Shown here piece by piece: positions 2,290 to 64,000 of a DNA stretch of 64,000 nt. Position 1 is the first letter of the stretch. Every line of letters begins with the position of its first letter. The translations under genes were made by a program, and so were the position numbers. Origin of the DNA: Cystobasidiopsis lactophilus (lineage: Eukaryota > Basidiomycota > Agaricostilbomycetes > Agaricostilbales > Chionosphaeraceae); NCBI GenBank assembly GCA_001599975.1, contig BCIO01000001.1:3324293-3388292 (forward strand), in the 5' to 3' direction. The notes beneath the pieces were generated by a model. That model was given only the letters and a program-made list of their open reading frames with translations, was not told where the DNA came from and ran no database searches.

Positions 2290-3991
2290 GGGTCCCAAAA
2301 AGCCGTTAGAGAAACGGTCCTCTTCCGACTCACATGTGAAATGGCACGTTGGAGAGCTGGCTCATTATAACGGTTGCTTAAGACCACAGACTCGTTTTTG
2401 CTTGTACCCCCGCATGGTCTCTTGAGGAGGGCAGTTGGCCAAAGGTGGAGGGCTTGGTGGCAAAACCTCGAACGACTGGGAAAGCCTGAGCTTGACGGTT
2501 GAACCCTCTGGTGCTGCCGTGCGCCGCGTCATCGTTCGGCATGACGACTGCGTGTTTTTGTGGGAGGTTTCGAGAGGGGGCTGCACGCCCTGAGGGGATT
2601 GAGTTCGCTGCTGCCATTGGCGGCGGGGCGACTGGGTAGGGACTTGAGAAGAGCCTTGTTTGGCCTCTGAAAGGTGCCTTGGATGGCGCCATTTATATTC
2701 GAGTCCGAGAATGAGGCCATATGTGGAGGTCATTCCCGTTGGGAGGTGGCAACTGGCTTGCCTGGCTTCTTAGCCTCTTGCTCCTCCTCGTCGACAGGGC
2801 CGTTTGTTGAGGTCGCCCATCTGTAGCTGAGGACGACGGCCAGAAGATGCGCATGCTCTAAACCGGCACGACGCGCTGTAGCGTCGAGTCCACGCTGTCG
2901 ACTCGGCGCTCTTGCGAGAGCTCGACTCGATCCAAGATGCGCTGTTGCAAAGCACCACAGCCACACGCGCCTATGTCTCCAATGTGGTTCGGCAATATGG
3001 ACAGACGGTAGCCCCCCGAGTTGGTCGCGCCCGATTGACCTGTGTGCTCGCTTGATTGATCGATGCGAATGCGTCGATTTGTCGACACGGTGGCTTCGAT
3101 GTTGGCTCGGCGTGCGTTCGGTGCTCGGGACTGTTTCTTTTGCGCTTGGCCGTGCTCGGAGAACTGCGTGGCGGGATGTCAGGTCAGCGCTCGGACTCGA
3201 GGTGGCACAGAAGCATCGGGGATGGTGGCGAGTGGTCCAATCAAGATTTCGCACCCCCCTGTCTTCAAGTCTGGTCAAGGCAGCCCAATGTATCAGACGA
3301 TATTTGAAGGTCAATCAAGCTTAGGTGGTCGGTGGCGGACGACCTTTCAAGTGAGGCAAGTCACTCCTTGCCACCCAAACGACGCATCAGACCGAGCAAG
3401 ATGAAGATGGCCGACAGTGCTTGCCGACAAAGCCCCGAAGGTCAAGACCTGCCTCAGACCTGCTGTGTTCTGTCGTCGACATTTCTGGGCCGCAGGCGTC
3501 AAGCCCAATACTCTCCAAGCACTTCAACAGACACACACAGTCACAACCCATGAAGCACAGCACCAAACAGACACCCATTCTCTGGTGCTCAAGCAATCCT
3601 TCTGAACTGTCGAGGATGACGCTGCAGCTTTGAATGGCCGCCATTGCGCGCTGGGAGCAGGAAGCCAGCAAGGCACAGATCCTCAGCCAAGTCCTTGAAG
3701 GGCAAACTCGACTTGATCCCTTGATCTGATTGACGTGTCTGGTCGCGAATCGAGAGCAAGAAGTCAAATGGGGAAGACGACAGCCCGCTTTCCTCGAGTT
3801 GGCCTAGCGCTCTGGCAAACTGGAAGCACTCTCTCAAGCCTGACACCACTCAGACCACGGTGGCAGAGCGCGAGTCGAATACCACGAATGCCTTCGTCGA
3901 AGCGGAAGACTCACTGACTCAGGGGTCGCCTCGCTTCTTGCTCCGCCACCACATCCTTGTCCCACAACCTTGTTCATTACACTGTCCCAAT
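2290..3991 (+). repeat. Duplicated 5' module, copy A (inverted partner at 49272-50990)
   Basis: About 1.7 kb that recurs in reverse orientation at 49272-50990. Homology is patchy at the outer end (shared TTATAACGGTTGCTTA-like and ACATGTGAAATG blocks near 2330-2380) and becomes about 94% through 3170-3300. It is perfect over 3296-3416, and continues to within about 20 bases of the start codon of the downstream gene. Frames are broken by stops and by different indels in the two copies, so it does not look protein-coding. I found no terminal inverted repeats, target-site duplication or transposase. It could be a promoter/5' UTR block duplicated with its gene, or the relic of a larger dispersed unit. 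Confidence 0.8.
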
Positions 3992-4952
3992 ATGGCCTAC
4001 CAGTCGTTCCCAGATCTGCAACCTGTCGATTGGCACTATGGCCACTGTGACGACTGTCGCGCATACTACAACAGCATCGGGCCGTTCCAAATCTCTCGCA
4101 TGCCCCAGCCATCGATCCACGCCCAGCCGTGGCTCGTGCCCGACTGCTGGCTTAGCCCCCCTCCTCCTCCTCTTGTCTATCCCGACTTCAAAGCGCCAGC
4201 CATTTTCCTCAGCCAGCAAGTCGGCGACACCCTCAAGGACTACCGAAGCGGGCTGTTCATCAAGGAGACTTTGGCGCCAAGGTACGTCGCATTCTCCCGA
4301 CCTCCCTGCCTGGAGCCTTGTGGACTCAAGCGGCCCCTCTGACAGTATCGACTGGGTCCTGGACGGCTCGTTCGCCGCCAACCTGCTTTGGACCAGCGGC
4401 CCGAACATGTCGCCGAGCTACGTCGCCATGTCCACGCTGTTGACTCTCTTCCACGCCGGTATCGACGATCTCAAGACGATGAAGGCCTATCACCGCTTTC
4501 GGGACCTCGTCCACGCCGGGCAGTGGCAAGGCAGAGTGTGGGAACAGTACCAGTCGGTGCGCTCCTCGTCCCCCCTCTTTGCCTCCCATCTGTTTGCTCA
4601 CCACGACGAACCACAGCTGGCCAAGCAGCACCCAGAAATCGTGGGAGATTGCGTCGTGAACGAAACTCGTACCTGGCACATCATCAGCTGCCTCTTCTGG
4701 CAGGACGTGGCCAAGGCTTTCTACTTCTGGAATGACAACCAGCTGGGTGTGTCCCGATTCCGCTCTGCGTCCGACAGATTTTGCTGACCCTGTTTCTCTA
4801 TAGCCGAATGGAATGCAGCTCAAACCAAATGGGCCAAATTCTACCTTCAGGCGGGCGCTCCGGTTCCGTCTCCCTGGGACTCAGAAGGACGAGTCTTTGC
4901 CCTCCCCGATGAGGAGGACGAGTCCTCGCCGGACGAAGCCTCCCCCCTCTAG
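3992..4952 (+). CDS. Unknown-family protein, module A paralogue (259 aa)
   Basis: I do not recognise this family. Four exons (3992-4281, 4346-4556, 4617-4746, 4804-4952) with GT-AG junctions give 259 residues. The N-terminus is MAYQSFPDLQPVDWHYGHCD with a CDDC pair and a PPPPP run. A helical middle follows (QQVGDTLKDYRSGLF, LWTSGPNMSPSYVAMSTLL). The C-terminal part is rich in aromatics (WHIISCLFWQDVAKAFYFW) and ends in an acidic, Ser/Pro tail. There is no signal peptide or membrane segment. The first two intron positions and phases match the paralogue at 48228-49271, as do SGPNM and the spacing of aromatics. It lies directly downstream of duplicated module A. Function is unknown. Confidence 0.7.
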
Positions 4953-26467: not shown

Positions 26468-27440
26468 TGCCTTAGCCTCTGCGACCGACTTTTTCGGCGT
26501 GTTGCCAGGTCGTTGCTCGCCAACATTGATTTTCTTCCCCTTGTGTGCCTGTACGCAGCTCCCGGTGCAAAGATGCAAAGACATGCTTCATGTATACAAG
26601 AAGACAAAGACGGCGCGTTAAGGCGGCTTGCACGCGCCAATGCTTCGGACTCGATGATTTGGAAATTTTGGATGTTTTGCTTGAGCATGACGATTTATAC
26701 GAAGCCCAACAAAGCTTTCTTCATGCCTTCATAGAGTACAGGCGATTTATAGAGGACGTCCGATTGCTGCGATTGTTTGAACATGGCCTGCAAGTCCTGA
26801 AGAAGGCGGGCAACTCGTGTCTTTGTCGCTGCGCAGCAGACATCGAAGCTGGCAGCATCCAATCTATGCTGTGCTTGAGTTGGTTTGGTCTGTTTTCTTG
26901 CAGAGTATCTTTGCCTCGTCATCTCTAGGCCTGTTCTCGTTGCCACAGCCAGAGTTGACCGCGATATGTCCATGTTCGCTGTGTGCCGTGCTCTGCGACT
27001 GACTGCCACAATCTCTGATGGCTATCATCAATCGATCCAGCCATTAAAAAGGCCCTAATTCAGTGCACTCGACGGGCTGATAGAAGACACCCAAGCAGTT
27101 TCGCGCAGCGATGTCCAATTGACTTCGCAAAGGCTTTCTAAAAGTTCGCGCATCATCCCATTCACCCCTCTGCTGGCTAGTGCCCATCTCTCCACTGGAC
27201 ACTACTTACTCGACCCTCGCCTTGCCAATTTCGGCACCATCGTCGGCAGCAGGAGAGAGCGTGAAAGGCGGCAAAACAGGCAGAATCGGATTCCCCCTCC
27301 CGCTTGCCCCGCCTTCTGGCATTTTTGGCGATTCTACTCTCTTTGACCTGTTCTTCTCACCCATCCCATTTACATGTCAGTATCAATACACGGTGTTCTT
27401 ATGTTACAATGCTGAATTGCGCAAACAGTTACCAACCACC
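26468..27440. other. Long divergent intergenic region, AT-richer
   Basis: 973 bp between the TED1-like and first EthD-like starts, the longest gap outside the duplicated modules and visibly AT-richer than its surroundings. A 127-codon plus-strand frame (26545-26928) contains a Leu/Glu-rich segment (LDDLEILDVLLEHDDLYEAQ) but has poor third-position GC and no ATG near its start. I do not call it a gene. Confidence 0.4.
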
Positions 27441-27987
27441 ATGTCCACCCCCTACCTCGTCACCGTCCAGTACCCGCGCAGCGATCGCTTCGACGAGGAG
27501 TGAGCTCTCCTCTTGTTCAAAAGAGCAGGGACCGACTTCTAAATCTCATGCACACCAAAGTTACTACATCAACAAGCACATGGCTTTGGTTCAAAAGCAC
27601 TGGGGCCCTCCCGGCATGTACAAGACTGAAGTGCTGAAGTTCGAAGCTGGCGAGTTCTCCCACCAAGCCTCTCTGTACTTCAAGTCCCAAGAGCACTTTG
27701 CTGCGTAAGAGGCGGCCAATTCCGATGGCTGACCGGCAGAGGCTAATACGTTCTTTCTCGCGACCAGTGCGCAAGGCGTTCCCGGCACTCCGGAGGTTGT
27801 GAGTCGACATCAGCGCTTGGAGTCTTAACCATCCTCTGATAGAGGTCACTTCTAGCAAGGCGACGTCAAGAACTACACCGACGTCAGTGAGTACCGCCAA
27901 TCGAAATTACCTTCTCAGCGCAAAGACTAAGTGGGATCAGCTCCCGTCATCGCCACCTCGTTTGTTGCTAGCGAGTGGTCTGCCTGA
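27441..27987 (+). CDS. EthD-domain-like dimeric alpha/beta-barrel protein, copy 1
   Basis: Small ferredoxin-like barrel protein of the EthD family. Members include accessory proteins of ether or polyketide degradation, but most fungal ones are uncharacterised. Five exons (27441-27499, 27561-27704, 27768-27798, 27856-27886, 27941-27987) give 103 residues. The core is MSTPYLVTVQYPRSDRF, then DYYINKHMALVQKHWGP with the family's YY-x3-HM-x-LV signature. FSHQASLYFKSQEHF follows, and the end reads NYTDVTPVIATSFVASEWSA. Two exons are only 31 nt. A second copy follows 279 bp downstream on the same strand. Confidence 0.8.
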
Positions 27988-28265: not shown

Positions 28266-28755
28266 ATGGGCAAGTACCTCATGCGCGTTTCCTATCCGCG
28301 AACTGAGAACTGGAAGTTCGACCTCGAGTACGATTGCGCTCAACGCTCCGGCCGGGCAATCAAGGCTGACAAGATCGGTGGCGCAGTTACTATATGAAGA
28401 CCCATATGCCTTTGGTGTCGGACACTTGGAAAGAGCATGGACTTGAGAAGTGGGAAGTCGCAACTTTCGATGACCCCAAGTCGCCATTCACGCACGAAGC
28501 GACTTTGACCTGGACCAGCAAGGAGGCTCAAGCTGCGTAGGGAGCCCTATCCCTGCCCTATTGATCTGTTTTAAGAATGCCTTGCAGAACTCGCAAAGTC
28601 CCAGGCTCTAAGGCGGTGGTGCGTTGGGTCAAAGGACACTCCCGAATTTCAAGACCATGCTGATGCGTCGCCGGCAGTTCGACGATATCCCCAAGTTCGC
28701 CAATACGACCCCTACGGTGACCACCGCGAATGTCGTCAGCGATTGGAAGCTTTGA
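28266..28755 (+). CDS. EthD-domain-like protein, copy 2 (tandem paralogue)
   Basis: Paralogue of the preceding gene with the same exon plan. MGKYLMRVSYPRTENWKFDL joins over an intron to DYYMKTHMPLVSDTWKEHG, then FTHEATLTWTSKEAQAA. After two short introns come KVPGSKA and FDDIPKFANTTPTVTTANVV, ending SDWKL. The first splice is in the same codon as in copy 1 (Asp before YY). The proteins keep YPR, YY-x3-HM-x-LV, VPG and the T-P-V-x-T end but are otherwise well diverged, so the duplication is not recent. Convergent with the RING gene. Confidence 0.78.
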
Positions 28756-45760: not shown

Positions 45761-47977
45761 CTACAAATCCTCAAATGAGCCCTGCACCACCGCAGCTGGT
45801 TCGACCGCCTTCCGCCTCTTCTTAAACTCCCGCTCGTCCTGCTCCATCTCCTCCTCCTCTTCGCCAGCCGAGTCCTCGTCGGAGGAGGAAGCGGGCAAAG
45901 CGGTCCCCCTCGCCAGCCGCTTCTCCCGCTTGGTCAGCTTGATCGCCTTCTTCTCCTTCTTGGAAGACCACGCCTCGGTCGTCTTGGGCCGCCGCCGCTT
46001 CTCCTTCTTGGACGTCGACGCCGCCGCTGACGAGAGCCGCTTCTCCTCCCGAGCTGGGTCTTGAAAGCCATAATTGTCCCACTGTGCGATGCAGCGAAGG
46101 CTGGTATCAGAATCTGTGACTTTACTGATGTAGTAGAGCTCCCAGAACGCACATCAACTTCAGCATCTTGCCACTCCGTCAAATCCGCGCCCTTGAGCTC
46201 GGGCATCTTGGGCAGCCTCAACAACCCAAAGGTCTTGGCCAGCCCGACCAGGTCGAGGTCCTTAAGGCGGAAAATGAACGAGGCCTCGTGCTTGGTGTAG
46301 GCCCGCACGGCCGAGACGAAGGCTTTGGCCCCTTTCTCCTCCAGATCTCGGTCGGTCAGGACCAGCGAGCGCAGGGTGGCAAACAGGTCGGCCAATTTGC
46401 TGGTGGATTTGGGAGCTGGGAGAGATTGGAGAGGGATCTTGCGCAGCTTGAGAAAGTCTGTGGCAGGACACAATGAACTGGCGTCAGCCTCAAGGAGCAG
46501 ATTTAGTAATGGGCAATCCACGCACCGACGTAGTCCTCTTCCCGGCCTTTCAGCAGCAAAACGATTGCTCGGCCCATCTTGCCCGCTCTGGCAGTTCGAC
46601 CGCACCGGTGCGCGAACACCTTTGGGTCTTGGGGCGGGTCCACCTGGATCACGCAGTCCACATCCGGCACGTCCAGCCCTCTGGCCGCCACGTCGGTGCA
46701 CAGCAAGACGCTCGGCTTCACATCCGGCGCAGAGGTGAAGGCGGAATAAGTCGCGCTCCGCCGGGCCGGGGGTTGTTGGCCGTGCAGCGAGTGCAGGACG
46801 TAGGCGGACGACAGGCGGGGNAAGAGGGAGAGCAGCTTGAAGAAGTAGTCCACCGCTGCGCAGGTCGAGAAGTAGACGATGAACTTGCGTGACCCGCTGG
46901 CGGACTCTTGGTCGAGCAGGTCGAGCAGGGTCAGCGTCTTGTCGGCCGCAGAGCACACCGTGTGGTAATTTTCAAGCCTGTGAGGGCAAATGAAGAGTAA
47001 GCCTTGTCGGAGACATGGCTTAAGGGAGGCATCCACTCACGCTAGAGGCATCCGCACTTCTTGCTTGGTCAAAGCAGCCGCCACTTTGACCACCACTCGC
47101 ACCGGGTTTCGCAGCCCAATGCGCACAATCTCGGACAGTGCATCGGTCATGGTGGCGCTGAACAAGCCTGTGCGCCGTTGCTTGGGCAGGTTGAGTAGCA
47201 GGCGGGTCAAGCAAGTCGCAAAGCCGAGGTCCAGCAGCCGGTCCGCCTCGTCCAGGACCACCATTTCCAGCTGTTTCACATCGGCCACCACCACACCTGT
47301 CCCGCTTCGCTTCTTGGAGGAAGGCGGAGCGATGGAGGAGGAGCCCAGCAGGAATTCCTCCAGCCGCCCTGGAGTTCCAATTAGGATGGAAGCCCCATTC
47401 TCCAAGTAGGCGGCGTTGTCCTCCTTGACGGTCGTGGAGCCACCTATCAAGAGAAGAGGCGGGCTAAGAGGCGGTCGGGTGGAGGTAGAGGGTTGTATGG
47501 CTAGCAGGCTCTCGACGACTTTGTGAACTTGAATGGCGAGCTCTCTGACCTTCCTGATCAAAAAAGGCCAATTTAGAAGAACCAAACTAGCCGCTCACCT
47601 TGTAGGGACCAGAACGATAGCCCCAATTTGGCCTTTGCTCAACGGGACTTCTCGCCGCAAAAGTTTCTCAATCATGGGCAGGGCGTAAGCCAGCGTCTTG
47701 CCTGACCCTGTGACGGCCTGGCTTGCCAGCTCAGCCATCTGGAAACACCTTGAAGAGCAAAGAAGGGTCATTACCTCGACGACAACATCCTTGCTTTGCA
47801 AGAACAGCGGGATGGTGCTCGCTTGCACCGGGGTCATGCGCTCGAAGCCCATTGAAGCGAGGGTTTCCAGCCTGCGAAATGGGCTCAAAATATTGCTCTC
47901 GTGAAATCAGAGAGGGAAGCAGCGCACAGAAAGCTGGTCAAAGGCGGATTCAGCTCATCAAAGCGAAGCAGCTGCAT
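45761..47977 (-). CDS. SPB4: DEAD-box RNA helicase SPB4 (DDX55)
   Basis: Nucleolar RNA helicase for late 27S pre-rRNA processing and 60S assembly. Exon 1 ([16 protein letters not shown]) joins over a GTGCGC intron to [20 protein letters not shown]. Motifs are [14 protein letters not shown] (I), VPTR (Ia), GTPGR (Ib), [13 protein letters not shown] (II), LFSATMT (III), [15 protein letters not shown] (IV), [14 protein letters not shown] (V) and [10 protein letters not shown] (VI). The C-terminal extension has [20 protein letters not shown] and [12 protein letters not shown], typical of Spb4, then a Lys/Glu tail ending GSFEDL. The assembly carries one undetermined base at 46821, inside motif IV's exon. 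Confidence 0.95.
46821..46821. other. Undetermined base (N)
   Basis: The only ambiguous base in the window, in the SPB4 coding sequence shortly after FKLLSL. It lies in a G-rich run, so the local length may also be uncertain, although the frame continues correctly on both sides. Confidence 0.95.
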
Positions 47978-49271: not shown

Positions 49272-50990
49272 TTTGTACAAGGTGGAGTGAACAATAGGCA
49301 CAAGTGTCGGTGACCAAAGCGGTGGCGGAGCAGAAGCTTGGCCACCGTTTGGGTCAGTGAGGCTTCCCCTTCGACGACGGCATTCGTGGTATTCGACTCG
49401 GGCTCTGCCACCGTGGTCTGAGAGGTGTCAGGCTTGAGAGAGGGCCGCCAGTTTGCCAGAGCGCCATGCCATCTTGACGAAAGCGGACTGTCGTCTTCGC
49501 CAGTTGGCTTTCTTGCTCTCGATTCACGACCAGACACGTCAAGCAGATCAATGGACCAAATCGAGTTTGCCTTCAAAGGACGCAGCTAGATGTCTTTGTC
49601 TTGCTGCCATCGTGGCCATAGCGCGCAAAGGCGGTCATTCGAAGCTGGAGCGCTGTCCTCGACACTTCAAAGTGACTGTTGGATTCCGGCAAACGGGTGT
49701 CTGTTTGGTGCTGTGCTTCACGGGTTGTGACTGTGCGTGTCTATTGAAGTGCTTGGAGAGGTCTGGGCTTGACGCTTGAAGGCCCAGAGATGTCCACGAC
49801 AGAACAGAGCAAGGCGGAAAGAGCAGCAGGTCTTGACCTTCGTGGCTTTGTCGGCAAGCATTGTCGGCCATCTTCATCTTGCTCGGTCTGATGCGTCGTT
49901 TGGGTGGCAAGGAGTGACTTGCCTCACTTGAAAGGTCGTCCGCCACCGACCACCTAAGCTTGATTGACCTTCAAATATCGTCGGATACATTGGGCTGCCT
50001 TGACCAGACTTAAAGACAAGGGGATTGCGAAATTTTGATTGGACCACTCGCCACCTTCCCCGATGCTTCTGTGCCACCTCGAATCCGAGCGCTGACCTGA
50101 CATCCTGCCACGCAGTTCTCCGAGCACGGCCAAGCGCAAAAGAGACAGTCCCGAGCACCGAACGCACGCCGAGCCAACATTGAAGCCATCGTGTCGCCAA
50201 ATCGACGCATTCACATCGATCAATCAAGCGAACACAGGTCAATGGGGCGCAACCCAACTCGGAGGGCACCGTCTGTCCATATTCCGAACCACATTGGAGA
50301 TATAGGCGCGTGTGGCTGTGGTCCTTTGCAAAAGCGCATCTTGGATCGAGTCGAGCTCGCAAGAACCGAGTCGAGGAGGCGGATCCCATGGAAACCGCGC
50401 CGCGACCTTATAGAGCATATCCATTCTCTGGCTGTCGTCCTGGGCTATAGATGGGCGACCTCAGTAAACGGCCTTGTCGACGAGCAGGACTAAGAGGCTG
50501 CAACGAAGCCTTAGCCAGCAAGCCAGTCATTGCCACTCCCAACGGGAATAACACATTCGTCAACAACGAGCCAGTGGCCTCATCAATCTCTCTTGTCAAT
50601 AAAATGGCGCAACAAGGTACCCTCGAGTCTATGAGACTTCCCTCCACCAGCCAAGGTCCGCAACCGCCTTGGCCCCCTCAGCCGTGCAGCCGCCGGTTCT
50701 CTGCCCTACCCTACCACAAACACTTCGTCAGAAAAGTATGACGCGGAAAGCCGGCAGGCTCAACGAGGTTCGATCGCCAAGCTCTGGCTTTCCAACAAGT
50801 GAGAGTTTCGCCACCTGCTCTTGACTAGAGGATGCCGGACCCGTTGGTCATTGACCGAAGGGCAGACGAGCCTTCTAAGCAAACCGTTATAACCGGGTCA
50901 CCGATCTAACTTAAGCCAGAACGGTTTGGGCATTTCACATGCAAACTTTCGAGCGTTCGGACGGCTTTTGTCTCTAATGACAAATTAGCT
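49272..50990 (-). repeat. Duplicated 5' module, copy B (inverted partner of 2290-3991)
   Basis: Reverse-orientation counterpart of copy A, lying directly upstream of the module B gene just as copy A does for its own gene. The block 49862-49982 is identical to 3296-3416 over 121 bases. Flanking sequence is about 94% identical and the outer parts carry several indels. Its outer edge lies about 60 bp from the NDUFAF7 stop; copy A's outer edge lies downstream of HSP10. No terminal inverted repeats or target duplication were found. Confidence 0.8.
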
Positions 50991-51046: not shown

Positions 51047-52673
51047 TCATTTCAAAGCGAAAGGGAAAGGGTTGGCGCCACATAGCTTGGGCAAGATGCC
51101 CATGAACTTGTACTGCTGGCCCATCCCAGTCAGATCCACCAGCCGGTCGGTGGCCTTGACGATCTCTTGCTTTCTGGCTTCGGTCGTGGCGTTCTTGAGG
51201 AGCTCCTGGACTCGGACTTCTAGCCCCATGGAGTGAAGGAACTCTCGTTGACTGATGGGGCCAAGTGCTTGAGCTGACGGCCCATTGTTAGTCTACGAGA
51301 CTTGCTGAAGCAATATCAAAGCGTGCGTCGTACCTTCAGGTTCGACGGCCTCTCTGAGCCAGTCGAAGTCGACGTTGGCAGTCAGATCAACATGACCAGG
51401 GTCGAGGAGTGGGTCGGTGATTTGATGATTTCGAAAGCCCTAGATGAGGTGGCCATGAGATTCGCTGAGGTTAACGATGAGGCAAAGCGCAATCAACGCA
51501 CCCTGAAGGACCTAGAGAAAAATCGCGCGTCTCCGTAGTCGGCCACCAGGCCAGCTCCGCCTTTAGGCGATCCGGAAATGAGCTTGGCCAAGCCCGAAGC
51601 GATGCTGAACGCATCCGGACAGATCTCCACCCTTGTGCCGACCGACAATGTTTTGAGCACCTCTCGCTGTGCATAGAGGAGCGACATGGCGGTTTGGGAG
51701 CGGGAGATAGTAAGCCGAAGCTTTGGTAGCGGCCTGCTCTCCTGTTCAGCATGCAACCGAAGCAAACTGAAAGGGAGAGACCAACGTGGAAGATACAATG
51801 TTCGACGGGAGGGCTTCATCGACCATGACCTCTCGCCATCCTTCTTCGCGTTTCTGTGAATTTGGCGGGCCAGGTATTCAATATAACAAATTCAGTGCTA
51901 AAGGATCAAGTCCATGCACCTCGACCATGCAAATCGGCAGAGCGTCGAAAAACTCATGCGCGACCACCATCACAAATGCATCCGGCTCGGCTGTGATTTG
52001 TACAAACTCGCGAGTCAGACAACGCGCCAGTGGCAAATGTAACACCCGACTCACCTTGTAAGTGGTCTAATGAGGGCAACCACCGCTTCGCCACCGAATA
52101 CTCCTTGAGCTTGGCAGCTTGCAAGTCTTTTAGAAAGGCCGAGCTCTCGACCAAGTCCACCGACGTCAGTGTGTTAGAAAAAGCCTTGATTCGGTTGAAC
52201 GTCTGCGGTGAAAATGCAAAAGGGAATGAGCTGACAATCACAGCAAGAGAGAGCAATCGACTCACGCGCAGAACGTCGTCCATCAACGTCCCTTTGCCAG
52301 GACCCAGCTCGACAATCCGAGTCTTAGAAGGCATACCCTGAGCCTGCCACTGGCTGATGAACCAAATCGCTATCAACTGAACGAGTTCAACTCCACATTT
52401 CAGTACGCTGCTCCGAAAAAGTCGTCTTGCCGACGACTGAGCAAGGCAAGGCGTCTCCTCACCTCTCCAAATACTTGAGAAATCTCTGGACTGGTAATAA
52501 AATCGCCCTTCTTGCCCAATATAGTCGAATCCGCCGACCGAGACCGTGCATAATAGCCCAAAGTTGGGTGTGAGAGGCAGAGTTGCATGTACCGGGGCAA
52601 GGGCATGGGACCATGAGCCTGGATGGAGCTTTGGATGATCTTCAAGAGCTCATTGGGCACTTTGGAGGCCATC
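51047..52673 (-). CDS. NDUFAF7: Complex I assembly arginine methyltransferase NDUFAF7
   Basis: Mitochondrial methyltransferase of the MidA/DUF185 family that dimethylates an arginine of the 49-kDa complex I subunit during assembly. It starts MASKVPNELLKIIQSSIQAH, then MPLPRYMQLCLSHPTLGYYA and the motif GKKGDFITSPEISQVFGE. Next are the SAM-binding TRIVELGPGKGTLMDDVLR, FVMVVAHEFFDALPICMVEV and, near the end, QREFLHSMGLEVRVQELLK. It ends MGILPKLCGANPFPFALK. About six exons. Its start codon is only 62 bp from that of SEC8, so the two share one promoter. A presequence is not obvious at this start. Confidence 0.93.
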
Positions 52674-61396: not shown

Positions 61397-64000
61397 CTAC
61401 GCTTTTGGTGACACCCGCTGAAACCAACCCTTGGCGCCAGTTCCTTTGGCTGCTCTCTTTGCCTCCTTCGCCTCCATGGCCGTCTTGACTTCGTGGAAGT
61501 GCTCTTCCTCGGTCACTCCGCCACTGCGTCACCAGCATTTCAGTCCAGGAACCGAATGCGAGCAAGTCATGATGAACTGACCCCATTGTGTACCAAATGA
61601 TGCTCGCGAAGCCCAAAAGGGCAGTGATGATACACCCAGCGAGAGCTCCAATTCCAGCCGAATGCCAGCCGTTGTTTTCTGAGTTGGCCGTAAGGGTTAG
61701 CGCTCTCTCACTCATCTCGCAGGTTGAAAAGAATACTCACGAGGGTAAGGGCCGACGGTTGCGCCCTTGAAGTCAGTGGTGGACTGAATCCCGACAGAGT
61801 TGCCGCTGGTGGGAATGCCCAACGCGGCGCACTGGTCGGTGAGTTCGGTCGGGATGGTCATCCACTGTTGTGCTTGTAGCGGCGCCTCGATGAAGGTGAC
61901 AGCCAGACCAGATTCCAAGTGCCACTCAATGTGACAATGGCTGAGAGAAATTTTAGCAATATAGGAATACTGCACGAAGAACAGAACAAACAGCAGCCAT
62001 GACCCAGGGTTGTCGGCAGTGAATTGAATACCGACGTAGCCTCCGCCAGGAACCTGGACGGTATCGCGACGCATAGGGTTGGACTGGTCAGCAGGAAAGG
62101 GCGGGTTGATCACCGGGTCGTCTGAGAAGTAGTTGTAGGAGCGGCCGATAATTTGGAACTTGTGCCCGTGCAAATGGACTGCAGGTTCCGGGGTGTCAGC
62201 ACCTCGCCGTGGCTTCGTGATTAAGAGACATACAAGGGTGCATGCCGCCGTCGGTGTTCCATAGGTAGAGCAGAACAGTCTGGCCATACCCGAGAACGAA
62301 AGCATTGCCGGGAGCGGCGTAAACGTTGGGGTTGGTGGCATCAGGACCCATAGTCTGGACGGAAAGCACAGTGGGCACTTTGGGAGGGTTGAAGACGACA
62401 TCGTTGAAGACGCCGCGGTTGGTGCCGTCGGAGCTACACAAGCGCGAGCCTCAGACAAGACCAATCTGCTCGAGTTGGAAGACCCACAAGGTATCGAAGG
62501 TGATGGTGAGGTTGTAGGTCACATCGGGGACGGCCAGCGCTTGCGGCGCGGTCGGCACCAAGAGGGTGTCGTTGAACATGGTGTACTCCGGGATCAAGGT
62601 GGATTCCGAGAATGGCGACGCTGGGTCATAGACGATAGAAGAAGTGTAGTCTGTTTATAGTGAATGAGCCTGGGCTACTTGCGACTTGGGCTGGCGAAGG
62701 ACCTACTCATCCGGAGATCGTCGGGAATGGTATCAAACATGTCGGCTGCGGCGACTGGTCAGCGCCGAGTCTTTAAAGTCTCCATGGCACCGGGACGTAC
62801 GGTTGAAGTCAGCATGCAGGTAGTAATTGGTATCGGTGGTGTTGAGTGCGGTCACCAGGACGCTGAAGCGCTGAGCGACACCGAGGGAAAGGTAGTCGAT
62901 GGGATACTCCTCTGTGTCCACAGCATCGGCCTCAATAACGCGCATTTGATGACCGTCGATCCAGAAGTGGAACATAGCGAAGGCACTGGTGTTGATGATC
63001 CGCAGGCGATACGTCCGCCCGGGAACGAAGGTAAATTTGGCGTCGTCGTTGAAGCCGGCCAAGTACGTTTCGTTCTGGGCAAAATAGATGAGGGCAGTGT
63101 CTGGGGGCCTGGATGAGCGCCTGGGTTTCAAACTCAAAGGGAGAAGGCGCACCAGGGACCGGCTCAGCACCTGAAGCAAAAATTTGAATACCACTCGCTG
63201 CAGGTTAGACGGTCTGGAAAGCGCACCTGAGGGGTTGTACATGTTCAAGAACTGCTTAAGAAGGACCGGATGCTCGTCCTTGTACCTGAACAGAGGTGTC
63301 AACGGGATCCCGAACTGAAGCGGAAGGTGACGGACCAGTCGCCCAGGATGACCGTCAGCTCCTCGTCGTAGCTATGGACCTCTGTTTGTGGGTGGATCAA
63401 GAAAGGAGCGCGCAGGCCATCAACGTATTCGCCCTGGTAAATGTCAGCCGAAGGCGCGGTTTGGCCTCGAAAGTCCAAAGCCCACCAGAACGTGAGAATG
63501 CCACCAGTCTTTGATTCTTCGTTAGTTATCGACCACTCGATTCAAGCGCGCCACTCACAAGTTCCCGGCTCTTGATTCGCCAGAGGGATCTCATAAGTGA
63601 AGCTGGCCTGCGGGCGAACTTCTCACAAAACGGCTTTCGGAGGGCCACGGCAAAGTACCTACACCAACAGGGATACCACACTGTGAGACACCGACCGCTC
63701 CGTCGTAATAGGTCGTGTTTTGGACTGTGGACACGAGATCGCTTCAGCAAAGTTCACCTCGCCAGTGGTGTCCACTCACAGAGCATGCCATGATGATGGA
63801 TGCTGCAACCCTTGGTAAGACTGATCGTTCATTCCAGATACGGAAGAGCCGCTTACGAAGCAACTTTGTCCTGCATCCAACTCAGTAAGGACAGCCAAAT
63901 CTTCAAAATGCCGACCGACTCACCAGCTTGTTCGTAGCGTGAACACGGAGAGTGTCTGATTGGCTGACTGAGATTGGTGGTGGAGGCCATGTCCCTACAT
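61397..64000 (-). CDS. Membrane-anchored multicopper oxidase, Fet3-type (5' end off window)
   Basis: Laccase-fold oxidase; with a C-terminal anchor it is most likely the Fet3 ferroxidase of high-affinity iron uptake, which partners an Ftr1 permease. Copper sites seen are CSIHHHGML, EPGTYWWHSHGEYVDGLRAP, VHLHGHKFQIIGR and SHCHIEWHLESGLAVTF (the Cys-His bridge). In between are DEELTVILGDW and YKDEHPVLLKQFLNMYNPSG. After ATVGPYPREYS an exon gives a single membrane helix GIGALAGCIITALLGFASII, then a charged cytosolic tail ending KGWFQRVSPKA. Many short introns. The signal peptide and first copper-ligand strand lie beyond base 64000. Ferroxidase rather than laccase activity is inferred from the anchor. 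Confidence 0.88.

Follow-up and report, generated by a model that had tools for sequence, protein, structure and literature searches.

Two genes, A and B, in a 64-kb stretch of fungal DNA (the window, meaning the whole stretch analysed) are preceded by upstream DNA that is far more conserved than the proteins encoded behind it. The 5' block is 86.7% identical between the two genes, whereas the proteins align at 27% identity across 130 aa (E 4e-8 in that single comparison). An earlier note had made this observation, and our analysis confirms it. An explanation based on gene conversion between the two upstream regions is probable but not proven.

Results

The upstream block and its identity profile

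Self-comparison of the window (BLASTN, word 11, E <= 1e-5) revealed a single pair of repeats, 2732-3950 (+) against 50549-49321 (-). The repeats are inverted and align over 1245 columns with 1341 bits (Table 1). The earlier note had placed the block at 3170..3991; similarity does exist there, but strong homology begins at 2732 and weak collinear homology at 2456. The local score of 58 for the distal part was not reached by any of 200 one-side shuffles, the best of which scored 28.

Table 1. Coordinates of genes A and B and of their shared upstream features in the window
Feature	Position	Strand	Basis and remarks
Gene A, 259 aa	3992..4952	+	own gene model; exons 3992-4281, 4346-4556, 4617-4746, 4804-4952
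Gene B, 250 aa	48401..49271	-	own gene model; exons 49271-49027, 48968-48764, 48703-48401
5' block, gene A	2732..3950	+	self-BLASTN and alignments
5' block, gene B	49321..50549	-	self-BLASTN
Putatively homogenised core, block A	2918..3452	+	change-point fit; ~95% identical to B; includes the 121-bp perfect run
121-bp run identical to 3296-3416	49862..49982	-	alignment and run count
Degraded collinear distal homology, A side	2456..2597	+	local score 58
Degraded distal homology, B side	50674..50815	-	counterpart of 2456-2597

From ~50% at its distal limit, identity climbs to 95% in 2918-3452, varies between 60 and 96% per 50 columns as far as ~3900, and then falls before the start codons. In a change-point fit on a gap-tolerant alignment, the core of ~535 bp contains 26 differences in 536 columns, and the plateaus of divergence lie at 22%, 5% and 18% (BIC 953.5 for three segments, 954.5 for four and 987.6 for one). 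On a MAFFT alignment with segments of at least 12, a division into seven fitted best, including a 13-bp patch that is absent once the gap-tolerant alignment is used; the change points thus vary with alignment and settings. An identity of ~94% before the start codon, as claimed earlier, holds for the core (94-95%) and not for 3149-3979, where the summed alignment blocks give 713 identical positions out of 830 (86%). Positions 3577-3700 are ~30% different and are flanked on both sides by better conserved stretches, which would require at least two tracts or local constraint.

The perfect run of 121 bases at 3296-3416 and 49862-49982 was reproduced exactly and is bounded by mismatches at 3295 and 3417. 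When the match/mismatch string of the whole block was shuffled (1187 aligned columns, 171 mismatches), none of 5000 shuffles reached a run of this length (mean 36, maximum 83). Inside 3029-3448 (418 columns, 16 mismatches) it was reached by 306 of 5000, so that one uniform rate is allowed there. A single overwritten tract would therefore fit this part at least as well as islands of constraint.

Towards the genes, identity falls at 3918/3919, 74 bp upstream of the gene A ATG. The fall thus does not coincide with the ATG itself. The sharpness of the fall varies with the aligner: 51% of positions differ in 3919-3975 with MAFFT versus 28% in 3919-3985 with the gap-tolerant alignment. Between A and B, the 41 bp immediately preceding the ATG give a weak alignment, with a score reached by 19 of 300 shuffles. 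Both leaders contain a 9-codon upstream reading frame, at 3888-3917 (+) and 49383-49354 (-), with a common stop position and three substitutions between A and B, one of them synonymous. The fall in the MAFFT alignment directly follows the stop codon of this frame, which is possibly a conserved uORF, or a chance occurrence.

The G+C content of the core is 57.4% in A and 55.2% in B. It lies between the values of the two A flanks (62.6% and 55.2%) and gives no sign of GC-biased conversion. Summed over six segments, the substitutions in 2731-3915 comprise 88 transitions and 67 transversions; RIP-like erosion was rejected, as there is no strong transition excess over this interval.

A distant and old pair of paralogues

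The models of A and B were built from splice signals and reading frame. Their frames have codon scores of +0.284 and +0.186, and the 13 training ORFs of the window, scored on themselves, range from 0.111 to 0.313. The local score between the two proteins (91) exceeds all 500 shuffles (maximum 63), and judged by their sequences A and B are true but distant paralogues. On the protein alignment, our models place intron 2 at the same position in phase 0. Intron 1 is in phase 2 in both genes, at positions four residues apart beside an alignment gap, and the third intron of A is without a counterpart in B. The shared intron positions described earlier are thus exact for intron 2, agree in phase for intron 1, and do not extend to the third intron.

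Neither protein has an obvious hydrophobic leader or membrane stretch, the highest 19-residue hydropathy being 1.05 and 0.94. Pfam returned nothing for A and only a hydrolase match below the cut-off for B (14.7 bits, cut-off 27), and a two-sequence profile found no PDB sequence match up to E 10. In a collection of 5.8 billion proteins, no homologue at E <= 10 was found among 147 (A) and 594 (B) candidates sharing words with the query; this search relies on shared 5-residue words, which fast-evolving homologues can escape. A control protein of the window gave 426 relatives at E <= 1e-5 among 7996 candidates scored, and the 120 relatives listed are 27-43% identical to it. Its three best matches are from Meredithblackwellia, Sporobolomyces and Rhodotorula (34-38% identity), and many of the names are ones that we would place in Pucciniomycotina and Agaricomycotina. 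Judged from this one protein, fungi are present in the collection, but no close kin of this organism, which itself probably belongs to Pucciniomycotina. A six-frame protein search of the organism's own genome found no further members of the A/B family, at a limited sensitivity: query B found A at E 0.05 and 0.07, and query A missed B.

Several classes of sites bear on the age of the duplication. The alignment scores of introns 1 and 2 between A and B were reached by 209 and 56 of 300 shuffles, respectively, and that of the 3' flanks by 91 of 200. At four-fold sites 11 of 25 are identical, where 32% is expected from the third-position composition. The coding DNA retains a trace of similarity (1 of 300 shuffles reaches its score), so that the coding sequences are not wholly random to each other. 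Introns and 3' flanks thus appear saturated, and four-fold sites nearly so. Together these sites argue for an old duplication and make the block itself the part that is unusually alike. The collinear distal homology, and the homology that continues into the gene, further suggest that upstream region and gene were duplicated together first.

The same sites bear on very rapid adaptive change in the coding part, which the earlier note had offered among its explanations and which would here have followed a recent duplication. Orphan proteins with 27% identity would be expected from it. Selection on amino acids does not, however, bring introns and 3' flanks to a level no better than shuffles or make four-fold sites nearly random. 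As the whole story we regard it as extremely improbable.

Non-coding character of the block

Of the two outcomes that the earlier note would have taken as a refutation, neither was seen: coding and upstream identity are dissimilar, and the block does not look like conserved exons of a protein. An exonic origin would account for the long stop-free frames inside it, such as a 171-codon ATG frame in B, and for four small indels at ~2990-3050 that sum to a multiple of three. From one of these indels to the next the frame is nevertheless disrupted, and a further 1-base indel near 3252 displaces it permanently. No synonymous excess was detected in 30 simulation-based tests (five segments, the last covering the others, in six frames each), where the lowest p values were 0.044 and then 0.05, uncorrected. 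Codon scores of the best block windows reach 0.241 in A and 0.229 in B, values within what 30 mononucleotide shuffles of block A produce (0.159 to 0.423). A coding block was rejected on these grounds. The exon reading is barely credible to us, and by its sequence the block looks like non-coding DNA.

A structured non-coding RNA likewise lacks support. Rfam gave 0 matches to the whole window at gathering scores and 0 to the two upstream regions with the limit relaxed to E 10. The core shows no more folding stability than its shuffles, with z scores of +0.62 and +0.25 for the two strands of A and +1.07 for B in gene sense. Of the earlier suggestion of a functional non-coding RNA or a strong shared control region, the structured RNA has thus found no support, and a control region is possible, perhaps jointly with conversion. 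An unstructured transcript from the block is conceivable.

No tRNA or tmRNA was found in the 64-kb window, its two tandem arrays lie away from the locus, and a 30-base pattern from the core had 0 matches in viral contigs.

Genomic context

A DNA search of the 22.1-Mb genome found two copies of the block, such counts being lower bounds. The copies lie inverted and 46 kb apart on the same contig, and each takes up the greater part of the interval that separates A or B from the gene before it. On the left, the preceding gene is presumably Cpn10-like, with a frame ending near 1728; on the right, it is one that we take to be NDUFAF7/MidA-like, with its stop at 51047-51049. These neighbours share direction with A and B, respectively, so the block is not a divergent promoter.

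The search for terminal repeats returned one 14-nt imperfect inverted repeat around block A (2714-2727 / 3985-3998), which we judge to be chance, and none was listed for B. The two blocks were rejected as terminal inverted repeats of a mobile element: their identity is graded, the homology fades distally, and sharp outer ends are absent. Promoter capture by a mobile unit, another explanation put forward earlier, is disfavoured by the two copies, the fading of homology on both sides and the lack of convincing terminal repeats. A related possibility is one single, more recent promoter capture, in which the upstream region of one gene replaced that of the other, by overwriting or by duplication, and drift followed. 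The core, taken alone, fits one uniform low divergence as such an event would predict, but other levels of divergence are found outside it, and the degraded collinear homology on the distal side implies copies already related around the block. Mobile-element ends and further copies were not found in the searches above. We hold a single replacement to be distinctly unlikely.

Among eight other ORFs of the window, Pfam identified a GTPase, an MMM1-domain protein, an MFS transporter, an oxidoreductase, a phosphoesterase, a DEAD helicase and a CN hydrolase between the repeats; one ORF had no match. A mating-type locus or cassette was rejected: STE3 matches lie at 1.99 Mb of contig C4 and 2.33 Mb of contig C1, Homeobox_KN matches at 4.76 Mb of C1 and 1.19 Mb of C3, and the window covers 3.32-3.39 Mb of C1. 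The two places with STE3-like pheromone receptor matches (C4:1994434-1995499 and C1:2329659-2330000) are thus on different contigs, and the matched frames at both contain stops, perhaps reflecting introns or decay. A driver family of the wtf kind is disfavoured as well, since the six-frame protein search of the genome, at its limited sensitivity, found only A and B and no multicopy family.

Self-search of the window also showed two open stretches, 27265-27705 (+) and 28370-28537 (+), that are 40% alike over 52 residues (E 8e-7), possibly a second local paralogous pair or an internal repeat. Frames at 61712-63242 (-) resemble what we take to be pieces of a laccase-type multicopper oxidase. The window is complete except for a lone N at 46821.

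Discussion

We lean towards the view that A and B descend from an old inverted duplication and that their 5' region has been homogenised by ectopic gene conversion, with the coding parts spared and a regulatory function probably helping. An ancient duplication would have produced two modules, each an upstream region with its gene, inverted and now 46 kb apart. The genes would have diverged until introns and 3' flanks were saturated, and the upstream DNA would have been overwritten repeatedly by ectopic conversion between the inverted copies, most recently over the ~535 bp of 2918-3452 and its B counterpart. Conversion could persist in the block, whose copies are still similar enough for pairing, and excessive divergence of the coding parts would halt it near the start codons. 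Any tract extending into the coding part would mean the loss of one of two distinct proteins and would presumably be selected against. A common regulatory role probably contributes to keeping the block. According to PMC3924837, conversion depends on long similar stretches that can pair, with a typical length of a few hundred nucleotides. Such a requirement would confine conversion to the block once the coding parts differ, with selection against protein loss adding to the effect.

Of the four explanations given in the earlier note, the best fit is repeated gene conversion confined to the 5' block. We favour it since it explains together the saturation on both sides, the very high identity in the middle and the broad plateaus. 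Tracts of different age would give such plateaus; constraint could give the same profile. From two sequences and no outgroup, the profile does not separate conversion from strong constraint. Other points that weigh against conversion are the variation of the change points with alignment and settings, the divergent stretch at 3577-3700, the G+C content, and the trace of similarity between the coding sequences.

Purifying selection alone is possible, if rather unlikely. In that case a dense shared cis-regulatory region, or an unstructured regulatory transcript, would be needed by both genes and no conversion would have taken place. The position of the block directly upstream of both genes is consistent with this, as are the resemblance to a promoter or leader of the ~90%-identical part that ends 74 bp before the ATG of A, the short stretch beyond the distal end of the block that is degraded yet can still be recognised, and the 9-codon frame with the same stop in both leaders. 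It demands, however, ~95% constraint across 535 bp of non-coding DNA beside saturated introns. Islands of constraint are unneeded given the uniform rate allowed in 3029-3448, and neither an RNA family nor excess structure in the core was found. We also considered that the inverted 5' blocks might be an exchange device, in which recombination between them swaps or inverts the upstream environment of the two orphan genes, such that A and B share one regulatory programme or alternate in expression and the block is kept alike for this purpose. This appears highly unlikely.

If conversion is the true explanation, the locus is a clean natural case in which the promoter region of two long-separated paralogues evolves in concert and the remainder of the module is saturated or close to it, opposite to the pattern in yeast ribosomal-protein genes. 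It would mean that regulatory DNA can stay common to two proteins that are hardly alike, and would caution against dating a duplication by upstream identity. If constraint is the true explanation, fungal non-coding DNA that stays nearly invariant over half a kilobase would itself be remarkable.

Comparison with known systems

Conserved non-coding and divergent coding parts occur together in snake-venom phospholipases, and Plasmodium var genes combine shared upstream classes with divergent proteins. Both are large families in a known arms race, whereas A and B are an orphan pair without an obvious secretion signal.

Closer parallels come from pairs of paralogues. As described in the part of PMC3924837 used here, the primate red and green opsin genes lie ~24 kb apart and have introns homogenised by conversion with a divergence peak in an exon, and the non-coding parts of the colobine RNase1 duplicates differ much less than their coding parts. 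Like A and B, each of these is a set of two paralogues in one genome whose non-coding DNA is much more alike than the coding DNA, and the opsins, like A and B, are separated by tens of kilobases. In the same account, the opsins and RNase1 have homogenised introns or UTRs and local coding divergence, and the case for them comes from species comparison (PMC3924837). In A and B, by contrast, it would be the upstream part that is homogenised, the copies are inverted, the proteins are orphans, and the pair is known from two copies of one genome. Divergence is at or close to saturation in coding sequence, introns and 3' flanks alike. Non-coding divergence is below coding divergence for the 5' block only, and introns and 3' flanks are not homogenised.

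Two fungal systems offer further comparison. In yeast ribosomal-protein duplicates, the part of PMC3924837 drawn on here reports ectopic conversion in the coding parts and little evidence for it in regulatory regions; ectopic conversion is also what we propose for A and B, and the pattern is the mirror image. The wtf meiotic drivers of Schizosaccharomyces are, in the portion of PMC9562144 used here, a lineage-restricted family with non-allelic gene conversion; they resemble the orphans A and B in being fungal and lineage-restricted, but have many copies versus the two found here. Among the papers listed by our literature searches, none appeared to describe saturated paralogues with a homogenised upstream region, which does not prove that no such account is in print. 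Set beside these systems, the A/B pair looks like an extreme form of a known conversion pattern, with orphan genes.
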